A stretch of DNA of 64,000 nt from Mumia sp. Pv4-285 (GTDB lineage Bacteria; Actinomycetota; Actinomycetes; Propionibacteriales; Nocardioidaceae): NCBI RefSeq assembly GCF_041320275.1, contig NZ_CP162023.1, positions 4,340,001-4,404,000 on the forward strand, given 5' to 3'. Positions within the stretch are counted from its first letter, which is position 1; every line of letters starts with the position of its first letter. Shown here one piece after another: positions 10,611 to 64,000 of the stretch. The position numbers were made by a program, and so were the translations under genes. The notes beneath the pieces are model-generated. The model saw only the letters and a program-made list of their open reading frames with translations. It was not told the origin of the DNA and searched no databases.

Positions 10611-11777
10611 TCAGTACGACTTCGGGAGGCCGAGCGAGAACTGCGCGATGAAGTTGAGCACCATCTCGCGGCTCACCGGTGCGATGCGCGACAGGCGCGA
10701 GCCTGCCAGCATCTGCACCAGCCCGTACTCCTCGGCGAGCCCGTTGCCGCCGTGGGTCTGGATCGCCCGGTCGACGGCCGTGCAGACGACCTCGCCTGCG
10801 GCGTACTTCGCCATGTTCGCCGCCTCCCCGGCAGCCATGTGGTCGCCGGCCGCATACAGCGCCGCGGCCTTCTGCGTCATCAGCCGCGCGAGCTCGATCT
10901 CGATGTGCGTCTGCGCCAACGGGTGGGCGACGGCCTGGTGGGCGCCGATCGGCGCCTTCCACACCTGGCGCGTCTTCGCGTACTCGGTGGCGAGCTCCAG
11001 GGCGAGACGTGCCGTGCCCGTCGCGAACGACGCCGCCATGATCCGCTCGGGGTTGAGCCCTGCGAAGAGCTGCTCGATCCCGGCGTCCTCGCTCCCGATC
11101 AGCGCATCGGACGGGAGCGCGACGTCGTCGAAGAACAGCGTGAACTGCTTCTCGGGGCTGACGATCCCCATCGGGATCTCCTGCCAGGTGAACCCGGGGG
11201 TGTCGGTCGGGACCAGGAAGAGCGCGGGCTTGAGATTGCCGGTCTTGTGGTCCTCGGTGCGCGCGACCACCAGGACGTGGCTGGCCTCGTCGACCCCCGA
11301 GATGTAGGTCTTGCCGCCGGAGAGGCGCCAGCCGCCGTCCTCCTGGCGGTACGCCGTCGTGATGATCTTGTGCGAGTTGGATCCGGCGTCGGGCTCGGTG
11401 ATGGAGAACGCGAACGTACTCGTGCCGTCGGCGAGGCCGGGCAGCCAGCGCTGCTTCTGCTCGGCAGTGCCGTACTGGGCGATGATCGTGCCGACGATCG
11501 CCGGCGAGACCACCATCAGGAGCAGCGGGCAGCCTGCGGCGGCCAGCTCCTCGCACACCGCGGCGAGGTCACCGATCTCACCGCCACCGCCGCCGAACTC
11601 CTCAGGCACGGCGACCCCGAGGTAGCCGAGCTTGCCGGCCTCCTCCCACAGCTCGCTCGTCTTGCGACCCTCGCGGTACGCCGCGTTGAAGTAGTCCCGG
11701 CCGTACTTGCGGCCCAGGTCGGCGACCGCCTTGCGGAGGGCGCGACGCTCCTCGGTCTCGGCGAATGCGGTGGTCAT
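10611..11777 (-). CDS. Acyl-CoA dehydrogenase (FadE12-like)
   Basis: A 388-residue flavoenzyme covering the N-terminal helical domain, beta middle domain and C-terminal helical domain. Visible motifs are FAFSITEPDAGSNSHK (FAD/substrate loop), LSGGKTYISG, and the C-terminal signature IQTHGGNGLAEEYGL. It abstracts alpha/beta hydrogens from an acyl-CoA and passes electrons to ETF. The start ATG at 11777 overlaps the biotin carboxylase stop (ATGA), so the two are translationally coupled. With the upstream dehydrogenase this makes two acyl-CoA dehydrogenases bracketing the carboxylase, as in the mycobacterial accA2/accD2 locus. Confidence 0.93.
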   Translation of the reverse strand: MTTAFAETEERRALRKAVADLGRKYGRDYFNAAYREGRKTSELWEEAGKLGYLGVAVPEEFGGGGGEIGDLAAVCEELAAAGCPLLLMVVSPAIVGTIIAQYGTAEQKQRWLPGLADGTSTFAFSITEPDAGSNSHKIITTAYRQEDGGWRLSGGKTYISGVDEASHVLVVARTEDHKTGNLKPALFLVPTDTPGFTWQEIPMGIVSPEKQFTLFFDDVALPSDALIGSEDAGIEQLFAGLNPERIMAASFATGTARLALELATEYAKTRQVWKAPIGAHQAVAHPLAQTHIEIELARLMTQKAAALYAAGDHMAAGEAANMAKYAAGEVVCTAVDRAIQTHGGNGLAEEYGLVQMLAGSRLSRIAPVSREMVLNFIAQFSLGLPKSY

Positions 11778-13861
11778 GCGTTCTCTCCTTCGTCGGTGCC
11801 ATCTTCGTCGGTGCCGGCCTCGATCACGGCGAGCACCGCGCCGGACTCCACCTGGGAGCCTGCGGCGACCGCGAGCTCGGTGACGACGCCGTCGGTCGGC
11901 GCCGTGATGGTGTGCTGCATCTTCATGGCCTCGAGGACGACGACCACGTCGCCCTGCGAGACGGACTGACCCGCATGCACGCCCACCGAGACGACCGATC
12001 CGGGCATCGGCGCGAGCAGGGAGCCCGCGACGACCTGGTCGGCCGGGTCGGTGAACCGCGGGACCACGGCGAGGTCGAGCGGTCCCTCGGGGCCGTCGAC
12101 GTCGACGGTCGCGCCGTGCACCGCCACGGCGTACGCCCGTGCGACGCCGTCACGCTCCAGCACGACGTGATCCGCCGCGACCGAGGTCGCGACCGGGGCG
12201 GCGACGTCGTCCGCCTGCGGTTGCGGCGTGAGCCGACCGACCACCGACGCGTACGCGGCCGTGACCTCCGCTCCTCGCACCTCGTACGTCACCGTGTGCG
12301 GTTGGCTCGCGACGTTGCGGTAGCCCGCGGGGATCCGGGACAGGACCTTCGCCGACTCCGAGGCCGCCGTTGCCGAGGCGAGAGCCGCGGCGGTCGCGTA
12401 GTCCGCCACAGCGGCAGTCCCCGCGCGAGGAGCGGACCATGCGTCGATCCGCTCCTCCAGCAGGAGGGTGCTGAGCTCGCCGGCCACGAACTCCGGTGCG
12501 CCGAGGATGCCGTGCAGGAGGTCGAGGTTCGTGGTGACGCCGTGGAACCGCGTCCGGCCGAGCGCACCCCTCAGCGTCCGGATCGCCGACGCGCGGTCGG
12601 GCCCGTACGCGATCACCTTGGCGAGCATCGCGTCGTAGTGGATCCCGACCTCGCTGCCCGCCTCGACGCCGGAGTCCAGACGCAGGCCGTACGACGTCGG
12701 CCCGGTGAACTGCGCGACCGACCCGGGCAGGTCGAAGGCGCGCACGGTGCCGGTCTGCGGCGAGAAGTCGTCCGCGGCGTCCTCGGCGTACAGACGGACC
12801 TCGATCGCGTGGCCCCGGGGTGCAGGCGGCTCGGACAGGCCGGTCACCTCCTGGAGCGACCGGCCCTCCGCAACGGCCAGCTGGAGTGCGACCAGGTCGA
12901 GGCCGGTGACGGCCTCGGTGACCGGGTGCTCGACCTGGAGCCGCGTGTTCATCTCGAGGAAGGAGATGAGCGCGGGTCGCTCGTCTCGTTCCTCGACGCT
13001 GCGCCCATGCTCGTCTCGTTCCTCGACGCTGCGCCCATGCTCGTCTCGTTCCTCGACGAGGAACTCCACCGTCCCCGCGCCGGTGTAGCCGACCTGCTTC
13101 ACGAGCGAGCGTGCCGCGTCGTGCAGCGCCGTACGGGTCGCGTCCGACAACCCCGGTGCGGGGGCCTCCTCGACCACCTTCTGGTGACGCCGCTGGAGGG
13201 AGCAGTCGCGGTCTCCGAGCACCCAGCACGTGCCGTGCGCGTCGGCCATCACCTGCACCTCGACGTGCCGCGCGTGCTCGAGGTAGTGCTCCACGAACAC
13301 CGTCGTGTCGCCGAACGCCGACCCGGCCTCGGCGGCTGCCTGCTCCAGCGCCGCCGGGAGCGCGGCGAGATCGCGCACGACCCGCATGCCGCGACCACCA
13401 CCGCCCGAGGACGCCTTCACGACGAGCGGGAGGTCCGACGTCGTCATGGCCTCCGGCTCCAGGAGTCCGGCGACCGGACCACCGGCTGAGGCCATCAGCT
13501 CCTTGGAACGCACCTTCGACCCCATCGCGGAGATCGCCTCCGGGTCCGGCCCGATCCAGACGAGCCCGGCGTCGCGTACGGCCGCCGCGAACTCCGCGTT
13601 CTCCGACAAGAACCCGTACCCGGGGTGGATCGCGTCCGCGCCGGACGCCTGTGCCGCCGCGATGACGAGGTCACCGCGCAGGTACGTCTCGCCTGGCGCG
13701 TTGCCGGGAAGGCGTACGGCGGCATCGGCGTCGCGCACGAAGGGTGCGTCCGCGTCCGCGTCGGAGTGCACCGCGACCGTCTCGATGCCGAGCGCGCGGC
13801 AGGTGGCGAACACCCGCCGGGCGATCTCGCCCCGGTTCGCCACGAGCACCTTCTGAATCAT
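11774..13861 (-). CDS. accA2: Acyl-CoA carboxylase biotin carboxylase/BCCP subunit with in-frame repeat insertion
   Basis: About 695 residues: biotin carboxylase N-domain (VLVANRGEIARRV), ATP-grasp (SSGGGGRGMRVV; FLEMNTRLQVEHPVTE), C-domain, and a C-terminal biotinyl domain with EAMKMQH, the Lys near residue 646 carrying biotin. It carboxylates biotin with bicarbonate and ATP for the partner carboxyltransferase. Roughly residues 266-296 contain an acidic/basic insertion, EERDEHGRSV repeated 2.6 times, between VEFLV and FLEMN, where homologues have only a short turn; it is encoded by a 30-bp tandem repeat. The start at ATG 13861 has AAGGA upstream; an alternative GTG at 13888 would overlap the carboxyltransferase stop (GTGA). 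The symbol is by synteny. Confidence 0.92.
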   Translation of the reverse strand: MIQKVLVANRGEIARRVFATCRALGIETVAVHSDADADAPFVRDADAAVRLPGNAPGETYLRGDLVIAAAQASGADAIHPGYGFLSENAEFAAAVRDAGLVWIGPDPEAISAMGSKVRSKELMASAGGPVAGLLEPEAMTTSDLPLVVKASSGGGGRGMRVVRDLAALPAALEQAAAEAGSAFGDTTVFVEHYLEHARHVEVQVMADAHGTCWVLGDRDCSLQRRHQKVVEEAPAPGLSDATRTALHDAARSLVKQVGYTGAGTVEFLVEERDEHGRSVEERDEHGRSVEERDERPALISFLEMNTRLQVEHPVTEAVTGLDLVALQLAVAEGRSLQEVTGLSEPPAPRGHAIEVRLYAEDAADDFSPQTGTVRAFDLPGSVAQFTGPTSYGLRLDSGVEAGSEVGIHYDAMLAKVIAYGPDRASAIRTLRGALGRTRFHGVTTNLDLLHGILGAPEFVAGELSTLLLEERIDAWSAPRAGTAAVADYATAAALASATAASESAKVLSRIPAGYRNVASQPHTVTYEVRGAEVTAAYASVVGRLTPQPQADDVAAPVATSVAADHVVLERDGVARAYAVAVHGATVDVDGPEGPLDLAVVPRFTDPADQVVAGSLLAPMPGSVVSVGVHAGQSVSQGDVVVVLEAMKMQHTITAPTDGVVTELAVAAGSQVESGAVLAVIEAGTDEDGTDEGENA
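12980..13058. repeat. 30-bp tandem repeat (2.6 copies) inside the biotin carboxylase gene
   Basis: Two identical 30-bp units occupy 12980-13009 and 13010-13039, followed by a 19-base partial copy. The unit begins CTCGTCTCGTTCCTCGACG on the plus strand. Thirty bases is ten codons, so copy-number change keeps the frame. The unit resembles the outer end of the REP-type elements seen at 15.8 and 63.4 kb. Confidence 0.97.
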
Positions 13862-13884
13862 CTGTCGTCCTTCGCTCGTCGCGC

Positions 13885-15501
13885 TCACAGTCGGAACACC
13901 CCGTAGCCGCGGGCGCCCTCGACGGGCGCGTTCGCGATCGCGCTCAGGCAGATGCCGAGCACGGTGCGGGTGTCGCGCGGGTCGATGACACCGTCGTCGT
14001 AGAGCAGCCCGGACGTGAAGTACGCCAGCGACTGCTCCTCGATCTGCTTCTCGATGAACGCGCGCATCTGCTTGTCGCCGTCCTCGTCGTACGGCTGTCC
14101 CTTCGCCTCGGCGGCGCCGCGGGCGACGATCGAGATGACACCCGCGAGCTGCGCCGGACCCATCACCGCCGACTTCGCGTTGGGCCAGCTGAACATGAAG
14201 CGCGGGTCGTACGCTCGGCCGCTCATGCCGTAGTGGCCGGCGCCGTACGAGGCGCCGATCACGATGGAGATGTGCGGCACGGTCGAGTTGGAGACCGCGT
14301 TGATCATCTGCGCGCCGTGCTTGATGATGCCGCCCTGCTCGTACTCCGCGCCGACCATGTAGCCGGTCGTGTTGTGCAGGAATAGCAGCGGCGTGTCCGT
14401 CTGGTTGGCGAGCTGGATGAACTGGGTCGCCTTCTGCGCCTCCTCACTGAACAGCACGCCCTGCGCGTTCGCGAGGATGCCGATCGGACGGCCGTGCACC
14501 GAGGCGAACCCGGTGACCAGCGAGGAGCCGTACAGCGGCTTGAACTCGTCGAAGCCCGACGTGCCGTCCGGACCGCCGTCGACGATGCGCAGGATCACCT
14601 CCCGCGGGTCGAAGGGGACCTTGAGGTCCGACGGCACCAGGTCGAGCAGCTCGTCGGCGTCGAAGCCGGGCTCGTCGTACGAGGCAGCCGCGTCGGGACC
14701 GTGCTTACGCCAGTTGAGGCGTCGCACGATCTGGCGACCGAGGCGGATCGCGTCGTACTCGTCGACGGCGAGGTAGTCGGCGAGGCCCGACGTCCGGGCG
14801 TGCATCTCGGCGCCGCCGAGCGACTCGTCGTCGGACTCCTCGCCGGTCGCCATCTTCACCAGCGGCGGACCACCGAGGAAGACCTTCGCGCCTTCCTTCA
14901 CCATGACGACGTAGTCGCTCATGCCGGGCACGTACGCACCGCCGGCGGTCGAGTTGCCGAACACCAGCGCCACCGTCGGCACGCGGGCCGCGCTCGAGCG
15001 CGTGATGTTGCGGAACGTCGCGCCGCCAGGGATGAAGATGTCCTTCTGCGTCGGGAGATCGGCGCCGCCGGACTCGACCAGGTTGATCGTGGGCAGCCGG
15101 TTCTCGGCAGCGATCTGCGCCGCGCGCAGGCCCTTCTTCACCGTGAGGGGATTGCTCGACCCGCCCTTCACGGTCGGGTCGTTGGCGATGATCATGCACT
15201 CGACGCCTTCGACGACGCCGATGCCGGTGACGAGCGACCCGCCGACGGGGAAGTCGGTCCCCCACGCCGCGAGCGTGGAGAGCTCGAGGAACGGTGCACC
15301 CTCGTCGAGCAGGAGCTCGATCCGCTCACGCGCGAGCAGCTTGCCGCGGGCGTGGTGGCGATCGATGTAGCGCTGCCCTCCGCCCGCCAGCGCCTTCGCG
15401 TGCTGCTCGGCGAGGTCGGCGATCTTCGCCAGCATCGCCTCCCGGTTGGTCGGCGGTGCGTCGCCGGTGGTCGGAGCGGCGTCTGCCGCGGTCGTGGTCA
15501 T
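13885..15501 (-). CDS. accD2: Acyl-CoA carboxylase carboxyltransferase subunit (AccD2-like)
   Basis: A 538-residue carboxyltransferase with fused N and C crotonase-like domains. N domain: RGKLLARERIELLLDEGAPF, ESGGADLP, FGNSTAGGAYVPGMSDY. C domain: RPIGILANAQGVLF, FLHNTTGYMVG (oxyanion glycine loop), SYGAGHYGMSGRAYDPRF. This class (methylcrotonyl/geranyl-type, about 540 residues) transfers carboxyl from biotin to an acyl-CoA. The sequence alone does not settle the acyl substrate. The ATG overlaps the stop of the winged-helix gene (ATGA). It pairs with the biotin subunit encoded immediately downstream. Confidence 0.94.
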   Translation of the reverse strand: MTTTAADAAPTTGDAPPTNREAMLAKIADLAEQHAKALAGGGQRYIDRHHARGKLLARERIELLLDEGAPFLELSTLAAWGTDFPVGGSLVTGIGVVEGVECMIIANDPTVKGGSSNPLTVKKGLRAAQIAAENRLPTINLVESGGADLPTQKDIFIPGGATFRNITRSSAARVPTVALVFGNSTAGGAYVPGMSDYVVMVKEGAKVFLGGPPLVKMATGEESDDESLGGAEMHARTSGLADYLAVDEYDAIRLGRQIVRRLNWRKHGPDAAASYDEPGFDADELLDLVPSDLKVPFDPREVILRIVDGGPDGTSGFDEFKPLYGSSLVTGFASVHGRPIGILANAQGVLFSEEAQKATQFIQLANQTDTPLLFLHNTTGYMVGAEYEQGGIIKHGAQMINAVSNSTVPHISIVIGASYGAGHYGMSGRAYDPRFMFSWPNAKSAVMGPAQLAGVISIVARGAAEAKGQPYDEDGDKQMRAFIEKQIEEQSLAYFTSGLLYDDGVIDPRDTRTVLGICLSAIANAPVEGARGYGVFRL

Positions 15502-16652
15502 GCGGGTTCCTCCAAGGTGAGCTCGACCGGCCGGCCGAGGTAGCGCGAGAATCGGTCGGCCGCGTACGCGAACCGGTCGCGTACGTCGGCCGGTGTGCGG
15601 ACGAGCATGGTGAGGGTGAGCCGGACCGGGTCGGCCCTGCGCTGGGGCTTCGGCCACTTCCACCCACCGACGACGCGACCGTCCTCGACGGCGAGGCCCC
15701 AGAAGAAGATGCCCTCGATGGGTTCACGGGCGTACTCGGCGCTGGCGTCGACGGCCTGGCGGTTCTTGTAGGCGATGAGGTACTCGTCGTACGGCGGCAG
15801 CAGGTGGCTGCCCAGCCCCCCGCTGGTCGAGGCGTCCGCCCCACCCCCGCTGGTCGAGGCGACGGAGTCGATCGAGACCCCCCAGTACGTCAGCCCTTCC
15901 CGCTCGTACGACTCCGCACCGCACGCCTCGTATCCCCTCCGGGCGTCACCGACGGTGATGCCGCCCCACCAGGAGAGGTCGTGCGGCGTCGCAGGACCGT
16001 GGCCCTGCAGATAGCGCTCAGCCAGTCGCGCCACGGCCTCGTCGTGGTCCAGCGGGTCCGAGGCGGGAACGCGGTCGTCGAACGCGGCGAAGGTCTGCTG
16101 CTTGCCCTGCGGGGCTCCGCTGATCGCGACCCGGTCGAGCTCGGCGCTGAGGGTGATGAACCCGATCCGCTTTGCCGCGTCGATCCCGCGCTGCTCCAGC
16201 CGCTCGGCGAGGTCCTTGCGGGTGAGGTGCTCGCCGTCACCGAGCGCCTCCGCCACCGCGTCGTTGACCCGCGCACGCTCCGCGGGCTCGTCGAGCCCTG
16301 TCGCACGCCACGCCGACGCCATCGTGCGGATGATCCGCGGCCCGGTCAGCTCGAGCATCCAGCGCGCATCGGCGGGACGGACGAAGTGCCACGTCGGACG
16401 CAGGACGTGCGTCCGAAGGATCTCGCCGGACGCGACGAGGCTCTCGACGTCGGCCGCCGTGACCTCCCCGGCGGAGCGCTGGGCGAGCGCCCAGCCGGCG
16501 TCGACGTACTCCTGCGCCTGCACCGCGCCCAACTTCGCGACCACGTCGACCGGGCTCGCGAACGGCTCGCCGACCAGGCGCTGCCGTCTCATGCGCTCGA
16601 CGCGCAGCGGCGCCCAGTCGCCGTCGGAGGGTTCGGTGTAGGTCGCGACCAT
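15498..16652 (-). CDS. Winged-helix DNA-binding-domain protein (HTH_42/PF06224 family)
   Basis: A 384-residue member of the YcaQ/AlkZ-like winged-helix family. It shows LRVERMRRQRLVGEPFASPVDVVAKLGAVQAQEY at the N-terminus, HVLRPTWHFVRPADARWML in the middle, and PPYDEYLIAYKNR near residue 285. Some relatives are DNA glycosylases for cross-links, so either a repair or a regulatory role is possible. Residues about 258-277 (ASTSGGGADASTSGG) are a low-complexity insertion encoded by a REP-type repeat. The gene is coupled on both sides (TGATG with the upstream dehydrogenase, ATGA with the carboxyltransferase) and is an odd member of a catabolic operon. Confidence 0.85.
   Translation of the reverse strand: MVATYTEPSDGDWAPLRVERMRRQRLVGEPFASPVDVVAKLGAVQAQEYVDAGWALAQRSAGEVTAADVESLVASGEILRTHVLRPTWHFVRPADARWMLELTGPRIIRTMASAWRATGLDEPAERARVNDAVAEALGDGEHLTRKDLAERLEQRGIDAAKRIGFITLSAELDRVAISGAPQGKQQTFAAFDDRVPASDPLDHDEAVARLAERYLQGHGPATPHDLSWWGGITVGDARRGYEACGAESYEREGLTYWGVSIDSVASTSGGGADASTSGGLGSHLLPPYDEYLIAYKNRQAVDASAEYAREPIEGIFFWGLAVEDGRVVGGWKWPKPQRRADPVRLTLTMLVRTPADVRDRFAYAADRFSRYLGRPVELTLEEPA
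15820..15880. repeat. REP-type element (CCGCTGGTCGAGGCG ... CGATCGAGACCC) inside the winged-helix gene
   Basis: CCGCTGGTCGAGGCG occurs at 15820-15834 and again at 15847-15861 (27-base period, nine codons), followed by CGATCGAGACCC at 15869-15880. Exactly the same two end sequences, on the opposite strand, delimit a 74-bp element at 63407-63480. Related palindromic repeats are common in Nocardioidaceae-type genomes (from memory). Confidence 0.85.
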
Positions 16653-17905
16653 CAGAACCCCAGGATCTTCGCGATCAGATCGTTCATGACCTCGGTGGCG
16701 CCGCCGCCGATGCCGAGGATGCGGGAGTCGCGGTAGTGGCGCTCGACCTCGGACTCCCGCATGTAGCCCATCCCGCCGTGGATCTGCACGGCCTCGTCCA
16801 CGACGAAGTCGCACGCAGCCACGGCGTCGTTCTTCGCGACCGCGGCGTCGGCGGCGAGCCGCATCGGATCGATGCCGCTCTCCCCCGCGGTGGCTGCGGC
16901 GGCGCGCGCTTGTTCCGATGCGAGCGCGGCGCGCTCGACAACCTGGCGGGTGTACGCCCGCGCCGTCACGGTCGCGCGGTGCATCTCCACCAGCTTGTGC
17001 CGGATGACCTGACGTCCCGCGAGGGGCCGGCCGAACGTCTCCCGCTCCCGGGCGTACGCCACCGTGAGGTCGAGCGAGCGCTGCGCCGTCGCGTACGCCT
17101 GGACCGCGAGGCTCAGGCGCTCGTTGACGAACTGCTGCATGACGAGGACGAAGCCGCCGTTCTCCTCGCCCACGAGGTTGGCGACGGGCACGCGTGCGTC
17201 GTCGAACGCCAGCTCGGCGGTGTCGGAGCAGTGCCAGCCCATCTTGCGCAGCGGGCTCGCGACGGTGAAGCCGGGCGTTCCCTTGTCGACGACGAGGAGG
17301 GAGATCCCGCCGTAGCCGTCACCGCCGGTACGCACCGCCGTCGTCACGAAGTCGGCGCGCACCCCGGACGTGATGAAGGTCTTGGCGCCGTTGACGACGT
17401 ACGTGTCGCCGTCGCGCACCGCACGGGTCCGCAGGTTCGCGACGTCGGAGCCGCCACCGGGCTCGGTGACCCCGAGCGAGCCGATCTTCTCGCCGGCGAG
17501 GGTCGGGCGGACGTACCGCTCGACCAACGACGCGCTCTGCTCGGTGGGGTTCGCGCCGTGCGCCTCCACGCTCTGCTCATTTCGGGCTGCCGCCACGATG
17601 TGGGGCAGCGCGATGCCGTGCGTGTAGAGGGCGGCGATGAGGCCCGACGATCCGCCGGACTCGATGATCGCCTCGGTCACGACGGAGATGTCGACGACGT
17701 CACCGCCCTCGCCGCCGACGTCCTCGGGGAAGCCGATCCCGAGCAGTCCTGCCGCGGCCGCCGCCTTGTGCAGCGTGCGGGGGATCTCGCCCTCGTCCTC
17801 CCAGCGCGGGAGGTTGTCGAGGACCTCCGTGCGGACGAAGCGCGTCACGGACTCGCGCAGCGCCGTACGCTCCGGGGTCGACCACGCGTCGTACGGTGCC
17901 GTCAT
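16652..17905 (-). CDS. Acyl-CoA dehydrogenase (FadE13-like) with in-frame insertion
   Basis: A 417-residue acyl-CoA dehydrogenase. Motifs: GFPEDVGGEGGD, SLGVTEPGGGSDVANL, VNGAKTFITSGVRAD, GRPLAGRQVIRHKL, and the C-terminal QIHGGMGYMRESEVERHYRDSRI followed by GGGATEVM. Residues about 109-124 (QSVEAHGANPTEQSAS) interrupt the conserved stretch between HIVAAARNE and LVERYVRPTLAGEKIG, where homologues are contiguous; the insertion has EQS repeated 12 residues apart. The FAD- and substrate-facing motifs are intact, so it is probably active. The ATG overlaps the AtuA-like stop (ATGA). Confidence 0.93.
   Translation of the reverse strand: MTAPYDAWSTPERTALRESVTRFVRTEVLDNLPRWEDEGEIPRTLHKAAAAAGLLGIGFPEDVGGEGGDVVDISVVTEAIIESGGSSGLIAALYTHGIALPHIVAAARNEQSVEAHGANPTEQSASLVERYVRPTLAGEKIGSLGVTEPGGGSDVANLRTRAVRDGDTYVVNGAKTFITSGVRADFVTTAVRTGGDGYGGISLLVVDKGTPGFTVASPLRKMGWHCSDTAELAFDDARVPVANLVGEENGGFVLVMQQFVNERLSLAVQAYATAQRSLDLTVAYARERETFGRPLAGRQVIRHKLVEMHRATVTARAYTRQVVERAALASEQARAAAATAGESGIDPMRLAADAAVAKNDAVAACDFVVDEAVQIHGGMGYMRESEVERHYRDSRILGIGGGATEVMNDLIAKILGF
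17533..17578. repeat. Short repeat insertion in the acyl-CoA dehydrogenase gene
   Basis: CGCTCTGCTC occurs at 17533-17542 and 17569-17578, exactly 36 bases (12 codons) apart, flanking a GC-rich core. The segment encodes the extra residues absent from the normal acyl-CoA dehydrogenase alignment. It differs in sequence from the elements in the neighbouring genes. Confidence 0.75.
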
Positions 17906-19698
17906 CGCGACTCCTCGACCAGCTCAGCCGGAACGATCGCCGCGGGGACGTCGGCGACGCGTGCGCGGAGCCACTCGCCGAGCGCCTTCGCCTGCGGGTC
18001 GAACCGGGTCGACGCGGCCACGCCGTCGCCGAGGAACCCGTGCAGCACGACGTTGACCGCGCGGAGGTTCGGCAGCGGATGGATCTCGAGGTCCAGGTCG
18101 GCGGCCTCGGGCAGCAGCGTGCGTACGCCGGCGTCGTCGAGGAGGTCGACCAGCCACGCGTAGGCGGCGCCGGGATCGGCCGCGTCGCTGCGCACCCACA
18201 CGCCGACGTTCGCGTCACCACCCTTGTCGCCGCTGCGGGCGTGCACGAGCCGCCCGATCGGAACCCTTCGCGCGCCACTTTCTGAGGGCTCGCGAGCCAT
18301 TTCCTGTGCCGATGCGTCTCGCGCACCCGCGCGAACCGGCTCGCGAACGCCCGCAGAGTGGCTCGCGAGCGTGGGAGGGGGTGCGATCTCGGTGCGCGTG
18401 CCGTCGGCGAGGACGACGGTGTGCGGCACCAGCTCCTGCGCGACGTATCCCGGCGTGTAGACCCCGTACGGCGTGCCGGCCGCCGGCGGTCGGGTGACGG
18501 TGAAGCCCGGGTACGAGGCAAGCGCAAGCTCGATCGCCGCCGACGAGAACGAGCGCCCGACGGGATCGGGCGACGGGTCCTTGACGTGGCACCGCAGCAG
18601 GGCGGTCGCGCGGCCCTGCGTGTCAGGGTCGGGCACGTCGGTGCGGTCGAGCTGCCACTCCACCTCGGCCGGCACCCCGGCGGGCGAGTCGGCGAGGGCG
18701 TCCTCGACCTGGGCGCGTACGAGCGCTGCCTTCGCCTCGATGTCGAGACCGGTGAGGACGAGCTCGACGCTGTTGCGGAAGCCTCCGAACGCGTTGAGCG
18801 CGACCTTGGTGGTCGCCGGCGGGGCGGACCCGCGGACCCCGGAGACGGCCACGCGGTCGGGTCCGACCTGCTCGAGGGCTACCGAGTCGAGGTGTGCGAC
18901 GACGTCGGGCCCGGCGTACGCAGGTCCGGCGATCTCGTAGACGAGCTGGGCGGTGACGGTGTCGACCGTGACCACGCCGCCGGTGCCGTCGTGCTTGGTG
19001 ATGACGCTGCCGCCGTCCGCGCCGACCTCCGCGATCGGGAAGCCGGGGTGCAGCATCACCTTGGGGTCGATCTCGGCGAAGCCGGCGAAGTTGCCACCGG
19101 TGGCTTGCGTCCCGCACTCGATCACGTGCCCGGCGACGACGGCGCCGGCCAGCTGGTCGAAGTCCTCGCGCCCCCATCCGTAGGCGTGGATCGCGGGACC
19201 GACCACGACGGACGCATCGGTGACGCGCCCGGTGACGACGATGTCGGCACCGGCGTCCAGGGCGGCGGCGATGCCGAACGCCCCGAGGTACGCGTTGGCG
19301 GTCAGGGGCTGCTGACCGGCGTGACCGACCAGACCGAGCTCCGCGGCGCGCGGACGGAGGTCGTCCCCCTCCACGTGGGCGACCACGACGTCCACGCCCT
19401 GCTCGGCGGCGATCTCGCGGAGCTTCGCCGCGAGACCTGCGGGGTTGAGGCCGCCCGCGTTGGTGACGATGCGGACTCCGCGCTCCTTGGCGAATCCCAT
19501 GCACTCGGTCATCTGCTTGACGAACGTCTTCGCATAGCCGAGCGACGGGTCCTTCATCCGGTCACGCCCGAGGATCAGCATCGTGAGCTCGGCGAGGTAG
19601 TCGCCCGTGAGGTAGTCGAGGTCTCCTTCGGCCAGCATCTCGCGCATGGCGGCGAGACGGTCGCCGTAGAACCCGGAGCAGTTGCCGATGCGGATCAT
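17902..19698 (-). CDS. AtuA-family (DUF1446) acyclic terpene utilisation-like protein with repeat insertion
   Basis: A 598-residue protein in two parts: the large AtuA/DUF1446 domain (IRIGNCSGFYGDR start, VTNAGGLNPAGLA, VTGRVTDASVVVGPAIHAYGW, ECGTQATGGNFAGF) and a C-terminal domain of about 100 residues (HARSGDKGGDANVGVW). AtuA is required for citronellol/geraniol degradation in Pseudomonas but its reaction is unknown. Mycobacteria carry a homologue next to fadE13-accD2. Residues about 443-477, at the junction of the two domains, are an Arg/Ala/Ser-rich insertion encoded by a repeat element also present at 38.7 kb. Both ends are ATGA-coupled to neighbours. Confidence 0.88.
   Translation of the reverse strand: MIRIGNCSGFYGDRLAAMREMLAEGDLDYLTGDYLAELTMLILGRDRMKDPSLGYAKTFVKQMTECMGFAKERGVRIVTNAGGLNPAGLAAKLREIAAEQGVDVVVAHVEGDDLRPRAAELGLVGHAGQQPLTANAYLGAFGIAAALDAGADIVVTGRVTDASVVVGPAIHAYGWGREDFDQLAGAVVAGHVIECGTQATGGNFAGFAEIDPKVMLHPGFPIAEVGADGGSVITKHDGTGGVVTVDTVTAQLVYEIAGPAYAGPDVVAHLDSVALEQVGPDRVAVSGVRGSAPPATTKVALNAFGGFRNSVELVLTGLDIEAKAALVRAQVEDALADSPAGVPAEVEWQLDRTDVPDPDTQGRATALLRCHVKDPSPDPVGRSFSSAAIELALASYPGFTVTRPPAAGTPYGVYTPGYVAQELVPHTVVLADGTRTEIAPPPTLASHSAGVREPVRAGARDASAQEMAREPSESGARRVPIGRLVHARSGDKGGDANVGVWVRSDAADPGAAYAWLVDLLDDAGVRTLLPEAADLDLEIHPLPNLRAVNVVLHGFLGDGVAASTRFDPQAKALGEWLRARVADVPAAIVPAELVEESR
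18275..18370. repeat. Dispersed repeat (copy 1) inside the AtuA-like gene
   Basis: Contains CCACTTTCTG (18275-18284) and the 23-base segment 18338-18360 (GGCTCGCGAACGC, one base, CGCAGAGTG). The same two blocks occur in the same order at 38677-38686 and 38717-38739, the longer one matching at 22 of 23 bases. Several GGCTCGCGA/TCGCGAGCC inversions give it strong dyad character. Confidence 0.9.
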
Positions 19699-38667: not shown

Positions 38668-38750
38668 GTCCGCGAGCCACTTTCTGCAGGTCCGCGAGCC
38701 ACCGCCGTACGACAGTGGCTCGCGAACGCACGCAGAGTGTCTCGCTCGCG
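38668..38750. repeat. Dispersed repeat (copy 2), intergenic
   Basis: GTCCGCGAGCCAC occurs twice in direct orientation (38668-38680, 38690-38702) and is inverted as GTGGCTCGCGAAC (38715-38727). Blocks 38677-38686 and 38717-38739 match the repeat at 18275-18370 inside the AtuA-like gene. This copy fills the gap between two genes of the minus strand and may fold as a large hairpin. Confidence 0.88.
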
Positions 38751-38753
38751 AAC

Positions 38754-61909: not shown

Positions 61910-64000
61910 GGGGCCTGCCGCACGGTGCTCGACAGGTCCTCCGCGCAGGTCCCGCTCCACTCGCCGACCGCCCCACCTTCCATCGCGTCGGCTGCTCGCG
62001 CGCGCCCGAGGTTCCACTCCAGCCAGTCGTCGTCCGCGGGCTCCCAGTAGGCGAGCGCACACCCACGGTCCGCCGCCGGCAGGTCGGCGAGCACCGGGAC
62101 CGCGTCGTCGGAGAGGTCGGCGAAGTAGGCCCAGTCGATCTTGCCCGTCTCGGCGTACCGCTCGAGGTTGCGCTCGGCGACCCACGCGTCCGGGTTGATC
62201 GCCGCCAGGCCCAGCAGCACCACCGCACCGCTCAGCAGCGCGAACCGCGGAAGCCACCTGGCCCGGAGCGCGATGCCGCCGACCAGGACGGCGACGACAA
62301 GCAGGCCGAGCCACGCCTCGAACACGTCGACCAGGACCCGGAGCTGGGTGAAGCCGTACGCCTCCTGGTAGACGTGCATGCGGTAGAGCGCCGACGCGAC
62401 CACGACCAGCGTCTGCGCGCACAGCAGCCCGAGCGTCCCCCGCAGCCAGGCGCGGTCCGTGGCGGTCTCGCGCGGCGCCCGGCGCGTCGCCGCCCAGACC
62501 ACGACCAGCGTCAGCGCGGTCGCGACCGTGAGCTGTCCGAACCCGCGGTGCACGTACTCGGCGTACGTGAGGCCCGTCGTCTCCCGCAGGTACGCGTGCC
62601 CACCGAAGACCACCGTCGCCTGGGCGACCAGGAAGACCGCGAACACGGCGTTGACGGCGAGCACCGGCGTCAGCCACTCGAACCGCGCACCGGTCGAGCG
62701 CGCGGCAGCGGCCGGTCGGTCGACGCGGGGAGGGTTGAGCGCCAGGTACGCCGCGGCGAGCACCGTGCCGCCGACAGCGACGGTGACGAAGGCGCGGAGC
62801 ACGAACGTGTCGATCGTCAGGTCGGGGACGAGCACGTCGACCCACTCGGCGACCAGCGCGTCCGCCGAGACGAAGAGCGCCCCGAACACGAGGAGGCCGA
62901 GCACCGACCACACCACCGTACGGAGCAGCGCCGCCCCGTGGCCCAATCCGGTGAGGACGGTCAGCGTCCGTCCCAGCCACGGCAGCCCGCGCAGTCCGGC
63001 GAGCGGCCAGGACAGGCCGGAGAGGACGAAGCCGGGCAGCGAACGAGCGCCGGTGACCGCGCACACGCACACCGCCGCGCCGGCAAGCAGGCACAGCACC
63101 ACGATCCACTCCGCCGCCCGGACGACGCTCGTCGCCGCGAGGAGCACGCAGACCACCGCACAGGCGACGACGAACGGGTCACGACGTCGGTGCTCGGACG
63201 CGAGGATCACCGCACCCGCGCCCATGAGGACGAGGAACGTGCCGATCCCGAGACTGCGGAAGGGCAGCACGATCGCGGCGAGGACACCGACGCCCAGCGC
63301 ACCGAGCAGGACCGCCAGTCGCGCGGGGGTGCCGCGCTCGGGCCAGAAGCTGCCGAAGAGGTCGTCGAGCAGCGGCTGGGCTCCGACCGGCGACGGTGCC
63401 GGGGACGGGTCTCGATCGCTCGTCCTGAGGGACCCGAGCTCGCGAGGGTTGCTCGAAGGGCTTCGCGCCTCGACCAGCGGAGGAAGAGGACGTCCGTGCG
63501 GAGGTGGCGGGACGGGAGTCATGGCGTCCTCCTGACGCGTGACGGGGCGGTCGTGGGGGTGGAGCGGGAGGTCGACACTCACGCGGGCACCGTCGGTGCC
63601 GGGCTCGGGGTCGACGAAGCTGATCGTGCCGCCGTGGAGGTCGGTGACCCACCGGGCGATCGCCAGCCCGAGGCCGGTGCCGCCCGTGCCCTCGGCTGCG
63701 TTCAGGGTGCCGAACGGCTCGAAGACGCGGTCACGGTCGGACGGGTCGACCCCGGGCCCACGGTCGTGGACCTCGAGCCGGTAGCGGTCGCCGTGCAGGG
63801 TGACCTTGACGCTCACGGTCTCGCCCGCCGGGCTGTGACGCGACGCGTTGTCGAGGAGGTTGGACACCAGCTGGCGCAGACGGGCAGGGTCCGCGTGCAC
63901 GACGAGGTCGTCCGGATCGACGTGCACCGCGTACGACACGTCGCGCCCGAGGACACGGCTCTCGGCGACCGCGTCGTCCAGAAGGTCGCGCATCTCCACG
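61906..64000 (-). CDS. Histidine-kinase ATPase domain fused in frame to DUF4173 membrane protein (5' end beyond right edge)
   Basis: One open frame runs from the right edge to the stop at 61906-61908. Its first 150 residues are a kinase ATPase end: LLDDAVAESRVLGRDV, QLVSNLLDNASRHS (N box), VHDRGPGVD, GTGGTGLGLAIARWVTDLHGG. Then, without a stop, a Pro-rich stretch leads to a DUF4173 (DUF4153-like) protein with about 11 helices and the C-terminal INPDAWVAERNLERYAETGKIDWAYFADLSDDAVP region. An ATG at 63522 preceded by AGGAGG would start the membrane protein alone (538 residues), so the in-frame join may be a near-miss of two genes rather than a true fusion. A REP element encodes residues 13-39 of that shorter form. 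Confidence 0.8.
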   Translation of the reverse strand, partial: VEMRDLLDDAVAESRVLGRDVSYAVHVDPDDLVVHADPARLRQLVSNLLDNASRHSPAGETVSVKVTLHGDRYRLEVHDRGPGVDPSDRDRVFEPFGTLNAAEGTGGTGLGLAIARWVTDLHGGTISFVDPEPGTDGARVSVDLPLHPHDRPVTRQEDAMTPVPPPPHGRPLPPLVEARSPSSNPRELGSLRTSDRDPSPAPSPVGAQPLLDDLFGSFWPERGTPARLAVLLGALGVGVLAAIVLPFRSLGIGTFLVLMGAGAVILASEHRRRDPFVVACAVVCVLLAATSVVRAAEWIVVLCLLAGAAVCVCAVTGARSLPGFVLSGLSWPLAGLRGLPWLGRTLTVLTGLGHGAALLRTVVWSVLGLLVFGALFVSADALVAEWVDVLVPDLTIDTFVLRAFVTVAVGGTVLAAAYLALNPPRVDRPAAAARSTGARFEWLTPVLAVNAVFAVFLVAQATVVFGGHAYLRETTGLTYAEYVHRGFGQLTVATALTLVVVWAATRRAPRETATDRAWLRGTLGLLCAQTLVVVASALYRMHVYQEAYGFTQLRVLVDVFEAWLGLLVVAVLVGGIALRARWLPRFALLSGAVVLLGLAAINPDAWVAERNLERYAETGKIDWAYFADLSDDAVPVLADLPAADRGCALAYWEPADDDWLEWNLGRARAADAMEGGAVGEWSGTCAEDLSSTVRQAP
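63407..63480. repeat. REP-type element (copy 2) inside the DUF4173 gene
   Basis: Bounded by GGGTCTCGATCG (63407-63418) and CGCCTCGACCAGCGG (63466-63480), the reverse complement of the ends seen at 15.8 kb. Its 74 bases have strong dyad character and are translated in frame as a Ser/Pro/Arg-rich stretch before the first helix. Confidence 0.88.
63522..63533 (-). promoter_or_regulatory. Strong internal ribosome site and ATG for the DUF4173 part
   Basis: Minus strand AGGAGG (63528-63533) is five bases before the ATG at 63522. In the neighbouring frame this ATG is followed at once by TGA (ATGA), the usual gene junction in this genome, which suggests the kinase may once have ended here. Confidence 0.7.

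Follow-up and report, generated by a model that had tools for sequence, protein, structure and literature searches.

Do four in-frame peptide insertions within 5.4 kb of one catabolic operon share an origin, and is that origin a mobile repeat? The operon lies in a stretch of 64,000 nucleotides (the window) from the soil actinobacterium Mumia sp. Pv 4-285 (Nocardioidaceae), which has a GC content of 70% and a genome of 4,649,352 bases in a single contig. The original prediction held that a biotin carboxylase, a "winged-helix" protein, an acyl-CoA dehydrogenase and an AtuA-like protein each contain an internal repeat that keeps the frame, in the manner of the palindromic elements of Rickettsia, from which in-frame selfish repeats are best known. 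The features concerned are as follows (positions in the window).

11774..13861, minus strand: biotin carboxylase/biotin carrier subunit of acyl-CoA carboxylase (Pfam Biotin_carb_N, CPSase_L_D2, Biotin_carb_C, Biotin_lipoyl)
12979..13058, minus strand: element A, 2.7 perfect copies of a 30-bp unit (VEERDEHGRS), from TRF
15498..16652, minus strand: AlkZ-like DNA glycosylase family protein (Pfam PF06224, E 4.3e-47)
15820..15879, minus strand: family B element in frame, two cores 27 bp apart (exact 33-mer copy at 15847-15879 plus a second core)
16652..17905, minus strand: acyl-CoA dehydrogenase (Pfam)
17561..17587, minus strand: 27-bp insert, about ARNEQSVEA, not a repeat family, missing in five sister species
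17902..19698, minus strand: AtuA-family protein with C-terminal AtuA ferredoxin-like domain (PF07287, residues 2-429; PF23544, residues 480-578)
18268..18370 (about), minus strand: family D palindromic DNA in the interdomain linker of AtuA (inverted repeats, alignment)
38670..38752, no strand assigned: second family D element, intergenic (sequence match)
63408..63480, plus strand: long (73-nt) family B element, antisense to and in frame in a histidine-kinase/DUF4153 ORF, between those domains

The four sites were compared using orthologous regions fetched and aligned from 17 genomes. Sister species were represented by five genomes of the same genus: G001 (Mumia xiangluensis), G005 (M. quercus), G002, G003 and G004. 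A wider loop survey, by the anchors used, yielded the AtuA linker at 32 of 80 loci and the biotin carboxylase loop at 40 of 80. Repeats were counted in a sample of 1.25 Mb of Pv 4-285, consisting of evenly spaced stretches plus the window and 90% coding, with gene calls from our own codon-usage script, which are distinct from the deposited annotation.

Four extra peptides in one operon

The orthologue alignments revealed an in-frame extra peptide at all four proposed places, and all four fall in loops or linkers. The prediction was nevertheless only partly borne out, since these real extras do not represent a single phenomenon. The repeats in the AlkZ-like and AtuA proteins are dispersed. For the inserts in the carboxylase and the dehydrogenase dispersal is not supported, as the carboxylase unit (at 0-1 mismatch) and the dehydrogenase piece have no second locus, so that membership of a dispersed family holds for two sites of the four. 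By GRAVY, the AlkZ-like insert scores +0.12 and the other three are hydrophilic, as had been expected of all four. The label "winged-helix" gives way to the Pfam assignment of that protein to the AlkZ-like DNA glycosylase family.

Element A occupies a 31-residue loop, VEERDEHGRSVEERDEHGRSVEERDERPALI, of the biotin carboxylase. Whole-genome search found three copies of the unit at its locus and, at 0-1 mismatch, no second locus in Pv 4-285, so the array was rejected as a dispersed family. A distant tie to dispersed sequence is conceivable: the 20-mer of element A matches four other places in the whole genome at 2 mismatches (control 0), and GGTCGAGGAACGAG has 12 matches in the sample at one mismatch or fewer, as opposed to 2 in reversed sequence. 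Copy number differs between relatives. Pv 4-285 has three VEERDE units; the loop of G001 is 21 residues long with two VEERDE motifs, and those of G002, G003 and G005 are 11-12 residues long with the unit unrepeated. G004 (21 residues) and G008 carry unlike insertions at the same position. Element A is a single-locus tandem unit of varying copy number, as minisatellites are, and looks like a local tandem duplication that took in native VEERDE codons. In an AlphaFold2 model of the carboxylase (32-row alignment, mean pLDDT 87.5), it is a loop of low confidence (57, 49 and 67 over ten-residue blocks) between the confident strands 261-272 and 297-305. At the same turn, the protein of a Propionibacteriales MAG (locus L231) has 42 inserted residues of unrelated sequence, which contain a CAATCTCGGCGCGA repeat.

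At its insert, the Pv 4-285 acyl-CoA dehydrogenase is nine residues longer than the proteins of all five sisters. The 15-mer core of the insert occurs once in Pv 4-285 and, at up to one mismatch, nowhere in the five sister genomes; being single in its genome, it was rejected as a dispersed family. By the prediction's own rule a mobile repeat should recur elsewhere in the genome. The carboxylase unit (at 0-1 mismatch) and the dehydrogenase piece do not, and therefore we do not regard either insert as a demonstrated mobile repeat or extend the Rickettsia analogy to them. The two probably arose separately, as local events in loops that are equally permissive.

The AlkZ-like insert is of a different kind, with an exact 33-mer found at two more places (three in all). 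B-type sequences of other length and subtype occur at the same spot in G001, G003 and G005 (in G003 and G005 here and below, sequences are called B-type by resemblance), and the residues between anchors number 22, 18 and 60 in these species and 27 in Pv 4-285. The regions fetched from G002 and G004 yielded no orthologue, and no fully empty one was seen among the sister regions aligned. The predicted structure, from a 3-row alignment, has a mean pLDDT of 42.6 and was discarded as uninformative.

In AtuA, inverted repeats of family D make up the extra DNA, which lies in the stretch joining the AtuA domain to the ferredoxin-like domain. Family D has nine genome matches at up to 2 mismatches (control one), three of them in the window, including the claimed recurrence at 38.7 kb, which proved to be a genuine copy. 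Two other copies fold with z of -2.9 and -3.9. Family D is thus a dispersed repeat carried in frame, as the Rickettsia elements are. The surrounding motifs had been described as otherwise contiguous, but this fails for AtuA, where linker length and sequence vary in all species aligned. B-type DNA is found in the linkers of G001, G003 and G004, a D-like palindrome in G005 and neither in G002, so that B-type or D-type DNA is present in five of the six Mumia species.

Among relatives, 4 of 32 AtuA linkers contained a perfect stem beyond codon-shuffled controls (p below 0.05; 1.6 expected). Two belong to Aeromicrobium with the motif CGAGTGGTGCA (17 and 12 bp), one to Aeromicrobium sp. Root495 (21 bp), and the fourth, borderline stem to a MAG (10 bp, p 0.049). 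A third Aeromicrobium linker with CGAGTGGTGCA had no stem significant against the same controls. In the three Aeromicrobium genomes with CGAGTGGTGCA in this linker, the motif is dispersed, with 17, 33 and 15 matches to its arms as opposed to 1, 0 and 0 in the control; it had no match in six other genomes searched. The linker of G013 is filled by a long perfect inverted repeat. By locus, the long perfect inverted repeats in AtuA linkers of two other genomes were placed near 9571-9624 of L082 and near 6005-6062 of L201, with no further copies in the fetched stretches.

Distribution of family B within and between genes

Family B elements, mostly 31-73 nt long, consist of GGTCTCGA, a variable middle and CTCGACCAGCGG, and 57 such strings are present in the fetched loci. 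All of the six commonest over-represented 14-mers in the 1.25-Mb sample belong to this family. The exact 14-base core occurs 121 times in Pv 4-285, 114 times in G001 and 168 times in G004; G002 and G003 have none and G005 has 2. In 52 other genomes there were at most 8 exact cores each, where the reversed control reaches 6. An exact 31-mer has 28 copies spread over 25 places, of which three are within genes, and a 40-mer from a second biotin carboxylase is present at 4 places in the genome. The recurrence claimed at 63.4 kb is real and is a family B copy, itself within an open frame. The short consensus (the commonest copy) is stop-free in all six frames, which is not remarkable at 70% GC. Likeness to a palindrome was not upheld: compared with shuffles, B folds no better, with z from +1.75 to -0.90 under RNA and DNA parameters.

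A phylum-wide pattern search gave a match in 110 of 296 genomes, most with few matches. G281 (29 matches), G344 (27), G324 and G314 are enriched for GGTCTCGA...CTCGACCA elements of other subtypes. Because such elements are enriched in some actinobacteria, family B may be part of a wider superfamily. In Pv 4-285, one intergenic cluster (L191, genome 4264200-4265044) holds 18 B cores of mixed orientation among the matches listed, with recurring spacings near 25, 66 and 71, a composite higher-order repeat.

Position relative to genes was classified for 93 of the 121 exact cores (97 were listed, and those at 4431909, 4431938, 4431968 and 4435977 were left out). These form 46 clusters, 31 intergenic and 15 in called genes. 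Given that about 10% of the sequence is intergenic, the per-base difference is about 19-fold. Convergent gaps hold 13 of the 31 intergenic clusters, compared with 65 of 553 gaps overall (Fisher p 4.6e-5), whereas divergent gaps are avoided (4 of 31 versus 172 of 553). This placement, mainly extragenic, near gene 3' ends and often clustered, is REP-like.

The short core alone was rejected as proof of coding copies. At one mismatch or fewer it has 52 matches in the sample, 30 intergenic and 22 coding, and reversed sequence gives 1 and 22. A looser two-part rule found 37, 21 and 27 loci in the samples of Pv 4-285, G004 and G001, as opposed to 9, 2 and 2 in reversed sequence. Since the core is not in excess within genes, coding copies were judged by full-length copies or arrays, and since many coding matches under the looser rule look like chance, they were read one by one. 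With the peptides read individually, 10 of the 15 coding clusters, in nine genes, contain a full B copy or array well within the gene. The carriers are the second biotin carboxylase, a TPP enzyme, a PucR regulator, an M20 peptidase, an FMO-like enzyme, a maltokinase-like protein, an acyltransferase E2 (two clusters), the histidine kinase/DUF4153 ORF and the AlkZ-like protein. By arithmetic from domain coordinates, the copies in E2 and the TPP enzyme lie between Pfam domains. Another full copy, in a PaaD-type gene (L181), is so near the called start (about 20 codons or fewer) that it may be extragenic; the core-only coding clusters L172, L174, L187 and L193 (4415442) may be chance. Family B is thus a dispersed repeat residing in frame in at least nine genes, and here, as for family D in AtuA, the analogy with Rickettsia held.

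Spacing between cores differs sharply between the two settings. In coding tandem arrays, 22 of 22 spacings are multiples of three (11 of 11 in Pv 4-285, 8 of 8 in G004 and 3 of 3 in G001), compared with 39 of 87 intergenic spacings (54, 9 and 24 in the three genomes). Counted by array, the figures are 10 of 10 and 11 of 34 (Fisher p 1.4e-4), bearing in mind that spacings within one array or gene are not independent, that two of the four sister arrays share one gene and that the coding class requires an open frame at the locus. One coding pair that looks like chance (L138) is outside the 10 arrays, as are the other looser-rule rows from Pv 4-285.

Origin of the in-frame copies

At several of these sites the loops of sister species are shorter or filled differently. 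Between the anchors of the second biotin carboxylase there are 33 residues in Pv 4-285 and 4-9 in the five sisters, with one in-frame TGA in the matched stretch of G003. The M20 peptidase loop has 49 residues in Pv 4-285, 9 in G003, 18 with one B-like unit in G005 and 97 with B units in both orientations in G004; G001 has a four-unit variant array, and G002 a short repeat without clear B. The FMO-like enzyme has 44 residues in Pv 4-285 and 40, 21 and 49, with B-type DNA, in G001, G003 and G004; B was not visible in G002, and G005 yielded just a distant paralog. Loops that are much shorter or have no visible B are found for the second biotin carboxylase (five sisters), the M20 peptidase (G003) and the FMO-like enzyme (G002). 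Sisters also have in-frame B arrays or copies in DnaX (G001, G004), UvrD/PcrA (G004) and Mfd (G004), at loci L329:4599-8228, L333:5138-7279, L340:5660-8218 and L355:15964-17985.

We consider it likely that small dispersed repeats copy themselves, that selection keeps in-frame copies in permissive loops and that arrays there grow by triplets. Mumia genomes would carry such repeats in species-specific subtypes, namely B (GGTCTCGA-middle-CTCGACCAGCGG) and D (true palindromes). The repeats are dispersed, and identical copies lie both in and between genes; their spread would be selfish, presumably by transposition or template-switch copying. Most copies would settle near gene 3' ends and some inside genes. 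Purifying selection would then eliminate copies that disrupt frame or fold, so that presumably neutral survivors remain in linkers and turns. Surviving copies do reside in open frames, at loops that are empty or shorter in sisters. The CTCGACCAGCGG half could subsequently expand into tandem arrays, probably by slippage, and within genes only arrays with the observed triplet spacing would persist.

What moves the repeats is unlikely to be a RAYT, because a Y1_Tnp gene (PF01797) was found in none of the six Mumia genomes, although it was found in 5 of 14 control genomes. Neither target-site duplications nor terminal inverted repeats were seen by eye for B at the compared sites.

A less likely account is that the in-frame elements are old, ancestral Mumia insertions rewritten in each species by gene conversion, with little new insertion. 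The AlkZ-like, M20 and FMO-like sites hold differing B subtypes at the same place in several species, and because several sisters have B-type DNA in the same loops, B insertions may indeed be old and later homogenised. Against little new insertion, however, B is found in the second biotin carboxylase of Pv 4-285 alone among the six species (the G003 copy having the in-frame TGA), the M20 loop of G003 has 9 residues, and the G004 array in that loop has units in both orientations. Moreover, the repeats in AtuA linkers come from unrelated families (B types, D types and the Aeromicrobium palindrome), which argues for at least some repeated insertion events.

We regard as improbable the view that all four extras are ordinary loop-length variation and local minisatellites with no dispersed element. 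It fits the carboxylase (single locus at 0-1 mismatch) and the dehydrogenase insert, and the AtuA linker is variable in every species aligned. Yet dispersed copies largely refute it for AlkZ-like and AtuA, as do the exact AlkZ-like 33-mer at two other loci and the 31-mer at 25 places inside and between genes. Least probable of all is that the repeats are functional, as intergenic 3'-end signals or useful flexible peptides: B is enriched in convergent gaps and present in sisters' repair and replication genes, but both strands of the same B DNA are read, and in several different frames; B also has no strong fold, and three sister species have 0-2 exact cores.

Beyond self-copying repeats under selection for frame, it is quite possible, though we put it forward tentatively, that certain loops and linkers of Nocardioidaceae are recurrent landing pads for unrelated, lineage-specific repeats, as the AtuA linkers of Mumia, Aeromicrobium and other genomes would illustrate, a RAYT-less system remodelling the proteome in parallel across genera. 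Mumia can be cultivated, is rich in GC and offers many in-frame sites; its species differ in whether they carry family B, and no RAYT was found. It permits testing whether small selfish repeats alter enzymes or stay neutral, and what moves them; together with its relatives, it permits asking why repeats of different genera end up in the same linkers. Annotators should be warned that such loop insertions can be repeat-derived.

Comparison with known repeat systems

Searches of open-access literature turned up no title or opening of an abstract on such elements in Actinobacteria or Mumia. Minisatellites and intragenic tandem repeats are an apt description of element A and of how B arrays grow but leave identical dispersed B copies unexplained. 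MITEs such as Correia/NEMIS and ERIC, in the excerpts available of PMC2229807 and PMC10969869, are likewise non-autonomous and able to fuse in frame. Unlike them, B has no terminal inverted repeats or target duplications by eye, and no partner IS was identified.

GTAG/CGTC-tagged REPs, including intragenic ones, were described by Di Nocera 2013, and the accessible part of that survey (PMC3733652) suggests linkers and loops as neutral sites. As presented there, these REPs resemble B in being 20-40 bp long, high in copy number, mostly downstream of genes and in tandem clusters, with some within genes, including repair and replication genes; the in-frame B copies in sisters' DnaX, UvrD/PcrA and Mfd echo the published intragenic REPs in repair genes. 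CGTC REPs without a dedicated transposase are also mentioned in that part (PMC3733652). Actinobacteria are not named in its phylum lists, nor does the word appear anywhere in the paper (PMC3733652). B differs from these REPs in that it is not a good palindrome and that the six Mumia genomes are without a Y1/RAYT gene; by reading, common copies have no GTAG or CGTC tag at their ends.

Rickettsia palindromic elements, according to the passages available of PMC10969869 and PMC2229807 (citing Ogata 2000, 2002), are stem-loops of 105-150 bp. They share with the Mumia repeats small size, dispersal, in-frame residence in conserved genes, the coexistence of several families per genome and the presence of intergenic copies. 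They are long, stable stem-loops, which B is not, while D copies do fold. Compared with the elements in those passages, B is mostly 31-73 nt long, forms a weak hairpin and builds tandem arrays that are triplet-spaced in genes. The host differs as well, being here a soil actinobacterium of 70% GC.
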